In this document: piece by piece, positions 9,358-12,626 of the stretch | How the letters are laid out: each line of letters opens with the position of its first letter | Position numbering within the stretch: the stretch's first letter is position 1 | DNA from: Oscillatoria sp. FACHB-1407 | GTDB taxonomy: Bacteria; Cyanobacteriota; Cyanobacteriia; Elainellales; Elainellaceae | Reading direction: 5' to 3' | Length of the DNA: 64,000 bases | NCBI RefSeq assembly: GCF_014697545.1 | Contig: NZ_JACJSA010000007.1 | Span: forward strand, 248,001 to 312,000 | Translations under genes and position numbers: made by a program | Notes under the pieces: generated by a model | The model's database searches: none | Told to the model about the DNA's origin: nothing | What the model saw: only the letters and a program-made list of their open reading frames with translations

Positions 9358-9933
9358 ATGGCATCCGTTGACGAAATTTTAGACTTCTGGTTTGGTAACC
9401 CAATTGAGTCTTACAGCCAACGCAAAAAGTTGTGGTTTGTTAAAGATCTCAGTGTGGATCAGACATTACGCGATCGCTTCCTTTCAACTTACGAACAAGC
9501 CGCTGCGGGGGAACTGGATAACTGGCAATCGCAGCCATCAAGTTGTTTGGCGTTGATCATCGTCCTTGACCAGTTTCCCCGCAACATATTTCGCGGAGAA
9601 CCACGCGCCTTTGCCACCGACCCCCAGGCTCGGATTATTGCCAAAGGGGCGATCGCCAGAGGGTTTGACCAGCAGCTAGAACCGATACAGCGATTCTTTT
9701 TCTATTTGCCCTTGGAGCACAGCGAAGACCTCGCAGATCAGCACCAATCCATCGCCTTATATCAAGCTTTAGTCGTTGACTTTCCTGAGTTACAGGATGG
9801 GCTGGAGTACGCTATCCGTCATCGAGATGTGATCCAACGGTTTGGGCGGTTTCCCCATCGCAACGCCATTCTCAATCGACCCTCCACGCCTGAAGAGATT
9901 GAGTTTCTCAAACAACCAGGATCGTCTTTCTAA
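9358..9933 (+). CDS. DUF924 family protein
   Basis: 191 residues. It shows the family hallmarks from the first residues: VDEILDFWFG, LALIIVLDQFPRNIFRG (~65-81) and FFFYLPLEHSEDLADQ (~122-137), ending with a helical HRDVIQRFGRFPHRN segment. DUF924 proteins are all-helical, TPR-like soluble proteins with no established function. The length is normal for the family. The ATG at 9358 is preceded by AGGGATGT. Probably translated from the same transcript as the small exported protein upstream. Confidence 0.88.
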   Translation: MASVDEILDFWFGNPIESYSQRKKLWFVKDLSVDQTLRDRFLSTYEQAAAGELDNWQSQPSSCLALIIVLDQFPRNIFRGEPRAFATDPQARIIAKGAIARGFDQQLEPIQRFFFYLPLEHSEDLADQHQSIALYQALVVDFPELQDGLEYAIRHRDVIQRFGRFPHRNAILNRPSTPEEIEFLKQPGSSF

Positions 9934-10088: not shown

Positions 10089-11849
10089 ATGAGGATACGT
10101 ATGCACGCTGAGGGAGCGAGGGGTCAATTTGTAATTGGCATTGATCTAGGTGGAACTGCCATTAAGTTGGGGCGGTTCGATCGCACCGGACAATGTTTGC
10201 AGTCCCTCAGTGTGCCCACACCACAACCCTCTGATCCCAAAGTAGTGTTGGCTGCCATGGTCAAGGCGATCGCCCAACTTGACCCCAACGGTGAAAGTTT
10301 AGCGATTGGGGTTGGCACACCTGGCCCCGCTGACGTGACTGGGCGCATTGCCAGAGTCGCCATTAACCTGGGTTGGCAGGATGTTCCTCTTGCGGATTGG
10401 TTGGAGGCAGAGATTGGCAAACCCACGCTATTAGCTAACGATGCCAACTGTGCTGGATTAGGCGAATATTGGCTGGGAGCAGGGCGACGATTTCAGAACC
10501 TGATTCTGCTAACGTTAGGCACTGGAGTCGGAGGAGCCGTTATTTTAGATGGCAAGCTCTTTACAGGACGCGACGGCACTGCCGGAGAGTTGGGCTTGAT
10601 CACCCTGGACTATGCCGGACCCAGTTGCAACAGTGGCAACGACGGTTCCCTGGAACAACATGTCTCAGTGCAAGCCATTCGTCGTCGTACCGGGCTAGAG
10701 CCAGAGGTCTTGGGGGCAAAAGCCAAAGCCGGAGATGCAGAAGCGATCGCCTTCTGGGAAACCTACGGCTGTGAGTTGGGCGCAGGAATTGCCAGTTTGA
10801 TTTACATTCTTACTCCCGAAGCTGTATTAATTGGCGGGGGTGTCAGTGCCAGTGCCGAGTTCTTTTTTCCGTCGATGCAAGCGGAGATCGAACGGCGGGT
10901 TTTACTCAGTTCTCGCGATGGTTTGCAGTTACTGAGAGCCGAGTTGGGCAACCATGCTGGAATCGTCGGTGCTGCCAAACTGGCATGGCAATTTGTCGAT
11001 GACTACCCCTCGACGCCTGTAGAGTCTGATACGGCTCGTGAACTGCACCAGACCCAACTGGCATACGTCATGGCATCCGAGATGAGCCAGTTTAAGGCAG
11101 GGTTTTTGGCACGCACGTCACATGAGTTGCGATCGCCCCTCAATAGCGTCATCAGCTTGCATCAACTGATCCTGGCAGATTTGGCAGACAGCCCTGAAGA
11201 AGAACGAGACTTCATTAATCAGGCTCACACCGCTGCTCAGAAGATGCTGAAACTATTGGATGAATTAATTCGCGTCTCTAAAACGGAGTACGGCACCGAG
11301 CAGTTTCAATTGCAGCCCTTGCAACTGGCAATGATGCTCGAAGAGGTAGAACGACTAACTCACTTGCAGGCACAAAATCGGAGTTTGCGACTGGAGGTTG
11401 AATTACCGAACCCCAATGTGTATGTCTCTTCTGACCCACGGTGGCTCCATCAAATTTTGCTGAGTCTGATCGACACGCCATTGTCCCTCATGCAGGAGGG
11501 AACGGTGCGTGTCACCACTCAGATTTCCTCAAAGGGCGATCGCGCCCTGATTCAAATTGAGGATGAACGCCCACCCCATCATTGGAGCGAACCCATCCAT
11601 CTGCTGCAATCCCAGCGATCGCCATCCCTGCCTCTGACTGAACTGAAAGAGGCGATCGTTGCGGCTAACAATCACCCTGGCCCAGTGAAGTTTTCTCCAG
11701 AGTTTATGCTGCTGATCAACCAAACGCTGTTAGAGCTAATGGGCGGTCATTTAGAACTAGTGTCTATTCCAGTTACAGGTTCCACCCAGGAAATCGGCGT
11801 GACTTGCATTCAGTGCTCCATTCCTCTAGTCATGCAAGAGAACCTGTAG
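10089..11849 (+). CDS. ROK-family sugar kinase fused to a histidine kinase-like module
   Basis: 586 residues. Residues ~13-302 are a ROK kinase: GIDLGGTAIKLG phosphate-binding loop (17-28), NDAN with putative catalytic Asp118, TLGTGVGGA (142-150). The zinc site of classical ROK proteins (ExGH plus CxCGxxGC) is missing: here GELGLI and GPSCNSGNDGSLE. Residues ~318-398 form a HisKA domain with phospho-acceptor His345 in ARTSHELRSPLNSVIS. The following ATP-binding region is degenerate: no Asn in the N-box (HQILLSLIDTPLS) and EDERPPHH where DxGxG is expected. So sugar phosphorylation may be coupled to signalling through a DHp dimer that relies on another kinase. A second in-frame ATG at 10101 follows AGGATACGT and may be the true start. 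Confidence 0.82.
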   Translation: MRIRMHAEGARGQFVIGIDLGGTAIKLGRFDRTGQCLQSLSVPTPQPSDPKVVLAAMVKAIAQLDPNGESLAIGVGTPGPADVTGRIARVAINLGWQDVPLADWLEAEIGKPTLLANDANCAGLGEYWLGAGRRFQNLILLTLGTGVGGAVILDGKLFTGRDGTAGELGLITLDYAGPSCNSGNDGSLEQHVSVQAIRRRTGLEPEVLGAKAKAGDAEAIAFWETYGCELGAGIASLIYILTPEAVLIGGGVSASAEFFFPSMQAEIERRVLLSSRDGLQLLRAELGNHAGIVGAAKLAWQFVDDYPSTPVESDTARELHQTQLAYVMASEMSQFKAGFLARTSHELRSPLNSVISLHQLILADLADSPEEERDFINQAHTAAQKMLKLLDELIRVSKTEYGTEQFQLQPLQLAMMLEEVERLTHLQAQNRSLRLEVELPNPNVYVSSDPRWLHQILLSLIDTPLSLMQEGTVRVTTQISSKGDRALIQIEDERPPHHWSEPIHLLQSQRSPSLPLTELKEAIVAANNHPGPVKFSPEFMLLINQTLLELMGGHLELVSIPVTGSTQEIGVTCIQCSIPLVMQENL

Positions 11850-11963: not shown

Positions 11964-12626
11964 ATGAAAAAAACAACTCAAACCGAACAACCTGTGTTGT
12001 TGCCGAATGTCACTTGGCAAAAATTTGAGATGCTGCTGGCAGAGCTAGGGCAAGACCGCACCGTTCGTCTTACCTACGATCGCAACAAGTTAGAGATGCT
12101 CACGCCGCTACCAGAGCGCGATCGCTGCAACAAGTTGATTGAGTCCCTGATCCTACTGCTTGCCAACGAGTTAGGCATTTCGGTTGAGTCATGTTTGCCT
12201 CTGCTGATCAAAGGTAGTGAACAAGGGTGCGCGGTTGACGTGGATGGGGGCTACTACATCCAGTACCCCGTACCCGATGATGGACATCTTGCCGACTTAC
12301 CTCACGACGATCCTCCCGACCTGGCAGTCGAAATCGTCATCACCAAGAGCACCTTTGATAAATTGTCGCTCTATGCAGAGCTTGGCATCCCTGAAGTGTG
12401 GCGTTATCTCACTCAGGCAGGAGACGATGTGCTCAACGGCAATCTGCTGATTTATCAGCTTCAGGGAGATCGTTACATTGAACATGGCAAAAGTGCTATC
12501 TTTCCAGGCTTACCCGCTATCCAGATCATCCAGTTCATTCAACAAAGCGATGCGATCGGTCTGGTACAGGCTTTGCAACTGCTCCGTGCCTGGATTCAAG
12601 AGAAGCAAGAGGGGAGTCGGGAATAG
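11964..12626 (+). CDS. Uma2 family endonuclease (DUF820)
   Basis: 220 residues. Family pattern: VTWQKFEMLLAELG near the start, RLTYDRNKLEMLTPLPERDR, and the PD-(D/E)XK core DPPDLAVEIVITKSTFDKL (~111-129) followed by ELGIPEVWRY. Uma2 proteins are very abundant in cyanobacteria, often in dozens of copies, with a restriction-endonuclease fold and no proven role. The core acidic and EIV residues are intact, so it may be catalytic. The C-terminal end (IQEKQEGSRE) runs into an STRR, so the last residues may be repeat-derived. Confidence 0.9.
   Translation: MKKTTQTEQPVLLPNVTWQKFEMLLAELGQDRTVRLTYDRNKLEMLTPLPERDRCNKLIESLILLLANELGISVESCLPLLIKGSEQGCAVDVDGGYYIQYPVPDDGHLADLPHDDPPDLAVEIVITKSTFDKLSLYAELGIPEVWRYLTQAGDDVLNGNLLIYQLQGDRYIEHGKSAIFPGLPAIQIIQFIQQSDAIGLVQALQLLRAWIQEKQEGSRE

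Follow-up and report, generated by a model that had tools for sequence, protein, structure and literature searches.

The open reading frame at positions 10089-11849 of the window, by which we mean the whole 64,000-nucleotide stretch of Oscillatoria sp. FACHB-1407 DNA that was analyzed, unites two cyanobacterial genes that were once separate and single-copy, one encoding a ROK glucokinase and the other a kinase-dead histidine kinase (HK). Neither half is of a new kind, and the fusion is real, old and common to several genera. We consider it probable (about 0.6) that the fused protein is a working glucokinase tethered to a kinase-dead phosphoacceptor or phosphatase of the RetS or ChpT type.

Translation of the frame from the ATG at 10089 to the TAG at 11849 showed no internal stop, and the extent given in the original prediction was exact; one frame of 586 aa holds both domains. 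A check against Pfam placed ROK ahead of HisKA, as had been proposed. The ROK profile scored 202 bits against a cut-off of 22.9, and HisKA scored 43.7 bits against a cut-off of 26.9. His345, located in FLARTSHELRSP, was intact as claimed. The ATP-binding lobe, which had been called degenerate, left only a trace of HATPase_c, with an E value of 0.079 and 13.8 bits where the cut-off is 26.4, and its N, G1 and G2 boxes were gone. An internal start giving a free HK half was also considered and rejected, as inspection by eye found no Shine-Dalgarno-like sequence before the ATGs at 11070 and 11082. The fused gene is flanked by a DUF924 gene upstream (9358-9933) and by a gene for a Uma2-type putative endonuclease directly downstream (11964-12626).

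Table 1. Features of the fused gene, in window coordinates.
Feature	Positions	Strand	Remarks
Fused ORF, ROK kinase + kinase-dead histidine kinase	10089..11849	+	586 aa; recurs in 7 other family genomes
ROK (glucokinase-type) domain, residues 15-299, catalytic Asp118 in NDAN	10131..10985	+	PF00480, E 1.5e-59
Degenerate zinc-motif region, residues 167-189 (ELGL...CNSGNDGSLE)	10587..10655	+	His replaced by Leu170, two Cys by Ser
Linker and N-terminal portion of DHp helix, residues 300-336	10986..11096	+	No membrane helix
HisKA (DHp) domain, residues 337-401	11097..11291	+	PF00512, E 2.9e-11; helical hairpin in model
Phosphoacceptor-type His345 codon (HELRSP)	11121..11123	+	His in 93/93 family members
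Pseudo-CA lobe, residues 406-580	11304..11828	+	GHKL fold without N, G1 and G2 boxes; HATPase_c E 0.079; from alignment and fold matches

The ROK half retained the catalytic residues of the family, namely the Asp of NDAN, GTPG and GTGxGG. The NDAN and LGTGVGG/GTGVGG motifs were invariant among 24 ROK relatives, and this half therefore appears, from its sequence, to be a functional sugar kinase. In NagK, the Asp that matches the ROK catalytic Asp has been confirmed as the catalytic base (PMC10031466). The ROK half matched TIGR00744 (ROK_glcA_fam) with an E value of 5.3e-56 and 190 bits, which is under the curated cut-off of 260, and glucose is its probable substrate, as the nearest solved matches are labelled glucokinases. 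The structural zinc motif, H...CxCGxxGC, was missing as the original prediction had stated: its His is replaced by Leu170, and in place of CxCGxxGC stands C180-N-S182-G-N-D-G-S187. The same loss was common to ROK-domain relatives in the cyanobacterial glucokinase clade, so it is a normal trait of that clade and not a peculiarity of the fused protein, which rules out the idea that zinc loss marks a dead or special ROK domain. Polyphosphate/ATP-glucomannokinase likewise lacks the zinc motif; thus, the motif bears on the subgroup within ROK and not on membership of the family. The ROK half was about 51-78% identical to separate cyanobacterial ROK glucokinases over most of the class, whereas only in the fused lineage does ROK carry the C-terminal HK half. 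Two more ROK matches were present in the genome that contains the window: one lies in a frame of 408 aa, and the other is short.

The C-terminal half was analyzed by aligning the kinase-dead HK family (93 sequences) with six active kinases of the window's genome. Loss of His345 in most relatives, a possibility raised with the original prediction, was not seen, as the phosphoacceptor-type His was kept in 93 of 93 sequences. The Glu, Arg and Pro of HELRSP were also kept, the whole motif was nearly invariant, and HExxS, with Ser at His+4, was present in 99% of the family. Gln359, Glu371 and Glu372 were among the positions that are conserved in this family and variable in the active kinases. The N-, G1- and G2-boxes (NAxKFT, DxGxG and GxGLGL) were lost in the aligned members inspected. 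AlphaFold modelling of the HK half predicted a complete DHp plus pseudo-CA (GHKL) fold with a pLDDT of 83.6. The best solved folds, many of them tied, included ZraS, RetS, CpxA, GacS and DivL (Z 17.6-19.1), although a shared fold is no proof of function. The predicted GHKL fold and the residual similarity to HATPase_c, with an E value of 0.0024 in the related protein of an uncultured cyanobacterium (L106), might suggest that this half is an active kinase that has kept a degenerate form of ATP binding. However, the absence of the N-box Asn, DxGxG and GxGLGL makes such activity very improbable.

The mean pairwise identity across 25 genomes was 0.70 for DHp and 0.43 for the pseudo-CA lobe, while the nearest active paralogue gave 0.85 for DHp and 0.80 for CA. 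These values argue that DHp is under selection, and the loss of the ATP site together with retention of DHp points to a stable condition of the family and not to decay. A neutral origin, in which the HK half was acquired through loss of a stop codon and is now decaying as a tail, would agree with the fast divergence of the pseudo-CA lobe (0.38 among the fused proteins alone) and with fusion to whichever gene lies upstream. However, DHp in the fused proteins was still 0.67 identical, its His was invariant, and no other copy exists beside the fused one, so we regard a neutral tail as highly improbable. The closest active paralogue (L199, G000:C1:587243-588049) lies in a 618-aa frame and was matched in 32 of the 36 genomes of the taxonomic family; it is a candidate partner of the kinase-dead HK. 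At E <= 1e-3, the query matched about 118 further places in the window's genome, almost all of them through its HK half, which amounts to a large two-component repertoire.

The fused frame was found in 8 of 36 genomes of the same family, representing 7 genera and including the window's genome; the others were G003, G008, G012, G014, G015, G021 and G029. The frames were 570-618 aa long, with that of G021 cut by a contig end. No second strong match to either half was found in any fused genome, and the HK half was present in all 27 near-complete family genomes with one strong match each, fused or separate. Most other family genomes carried the ROK gene alone in an open frame of about 300-370 aa and the HK half separately in a frame of about 280-375 aa. 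The HK gene lay unfused directly behind ROK, on the same strand, in G016, G026 and G001 of this family and in G037, G061, G088 and G075 of another, so that the HK half stands behind ROK in two families. An oppC-like permease gene often precedes ROK in these unfused neighbourhoods, and the permease, ROK and HK genes were adjacent as separate genes in the second family (f3) and in G016 and G026. The fused genomes G003 (L125), G008 and G015 retained this permease gene upstream. The separate side-by-side genes of relatives represent the state before fusion. They might also suggest that a sequencing or assembly error joined two neighbours here, but 7 other assemblies carry the same fusion in sequences that have diverged, which leaves error, as raised by the original prediction, a practically negligible chance. 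When the ROK and HK sequences were joined for a tree, five of the fused genomes formed a supported clade (97/95), the placement of the window's genome and G014 was unresolved, and a single clade for all seven fused genomes was not rejected (p-AU 0.206).

The HK half is one of a family of proteins, conserved in cyanobacteria, that are about 290-345 aa long and usually have a gene of their own. Matches at E <= 1e-45 occurred in 78 of the 145 genomes sampled from the class, and the family has named members in Nostoc, Anabaena, Microcoleus, Trichodesmium and Moorena. In a simple hydrophobicity scan, many of the separate HKs showed one glycine-rich hydrophobic N-terminal helix, presumed to be a membrane helix, and none was found before DHp in the fused proteins. 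At 32 of 42 named loci, the gene just upstream of the HK gene, in the same orientation, was sua5/tsaC, often preceded by prmC. The conserved order at named loci (L099-L141) was Tic22-like, prmC, sua5/tsaC and kinase-dead HK, with a convergent GNAT gene downstream; this order links a signalling gene to translation genes. In a genome of the uncultured cyanobacterium assembled from metagenome data, Sua5/TsaC and the kinase-dead HK were present in one 470-aa frame (L106:258-1670). This is an independent fusion with the upstream gene: the same HK family is joined to the enzyme encoded upstream, although the enzyme is Sua5 and not ROK. In G043, G045 and G111, from two other families, the gene upstream of the kinase-dead HK was aldehyde-dehydrogenase-like, and in G043 and G045 the HK gene overlapped it by a few bases. 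Overlaps of this kind were located at L182:835-3356 and L183:1837-4351. ROK and HK co-occurred over the class (both, 68 genomes; HK only, 10; ROK only, 29; neither, 38), and this was significant by Fisher's test without correction for relatedness, but genome size probably drives it and it was not used as evidence.

These neighbourhoods bear on whether sugar is the signal. The ROK half could act as a sugar-sensing receptor, in which occupancy by glucose or ATP alters DHp and thereby switches a partner kinase or regulator. ROK sits ahead of the DHp helix in the position of a sensor domain, the ROK-HK neighbourhood occurs in two families with fusion in 7 genera, and ROK kinases such as NagK close on their substrate (PMC10031466). 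However, most relatives carry the HK half as a gene of its own at another place in the genome, it stands behind sua5 in other families and is joined to Sua5 in one metagenome-assembled genome, and the linker between the two halves was of low confidence in the full-length model (pLDDT 71.5, pTM 0.43), which is too weak for the packing of the halves. We therefore hold a sugar receptor to be a tentative and rather unlikely reading. The varied enzyme partners argue against glucose as the general signal of the family, and the link to glucokinase is lineage-specific, so that sugar sensing is only one possible role. Sugar-dependent control within the fused lineage is possible but unsupported, and it is not needed to explain the data. 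The original prediction had also proposed regulation of a metabolic enzyme by phosphorelay, with a kinase phosphorylating His345 and so changing glucokinase activity. An intact His and a physical tether would suit such control, but the ROK and HK genes are separate and far apart in most relatives, where the enzyme does without a tether, and the HK half is mostly found behind sua5/tsaC; the proposal was unsupported and appears improbable.

The preferred reading is that of a working glucokinase tethered to a kinase-dead HK, both halves of which would keep doing what their separate versions do. The ROK half would phosphorylate glucose, its predicted substrate. The C-terminal half would dimerize and, by analogy with RetS, ChpT and PhyT, act in a two-component pathway without ATP of its own, accepting phosphate from, or removing it from, a putative partner kinase or response regulator; alternatively, it may pair with another kinase and damp it. 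The ROK half would stand where many separate versions have their N-terminal membrane anchor, and could assist in keeping the DHp dimer together. The suggestion in the original prediction that DHp is phosphorylated in trans thus stood in part: the invariant His and the lost ATP site are as expected from it, while sugar as the signal was unsupported.

To our knowledge, no protein with the ROK-HisKA order has been described, and a literature search, with subscription journals outside its coverage, found none, in line with the original prediction. The analysis brings to light a conserved cyanobacterial kinase-dead HK family, for which we found no assigned function, and which evolution joins to metabolic enzymes. 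As one soluble protein from one gene, the fused form is a natural handle for finding the partner of the HK, and it suits the question of whether an enzyme can be the sensor of a two-component module. It is conceivable, though doubtful, that the protein is a bifunctional glucokinase-receptor, in which the substrate occupancy of the enzyme sets the state of DHp and feeds sugar status into the two-component network, with other lineages plugging in Sua5 instead.

The kinase-dead family was compared with known systems. RetS and GacS of Pseudomonas aeruginosa, which were among the top-scoring solved folds, have HisKA with an H-box, and in RetS the CA lobe is degenerate. RetS combines a periplasmic sensor with membrane helices and receiver domains, whereas the fused protein has a ROK enzyme in front and no receiver. 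The transmitter-phosphatase motif of RetS is HExxT, and the cyanobacterial family has HExxS in its place. RetS, with its degenerate HATPase and its HExxT motif, still acts on GacS, whose phosphorylation it lowers, in part through transmitter phosphatase activity and also by blocking autophosphorylation (PMC5992135). ChpT shuttles phosphate and controls CtrA as a phosphotransferase without autophosphorylation (PMC3433190), and PhyT is suspected to descend from a kinase with a degenerated catalytic domain (PMC5898713). ChpT of Caulobacter, Spo0B of Bacillus and PhyT of Sphingomonas likewise combine DHp with an ATP-dead CA-like lobe; in contrast to them, the HELRSP motif of HisKA is complete in the cyanobacterial family, which also carries an enzyme or a membrane helix in front.
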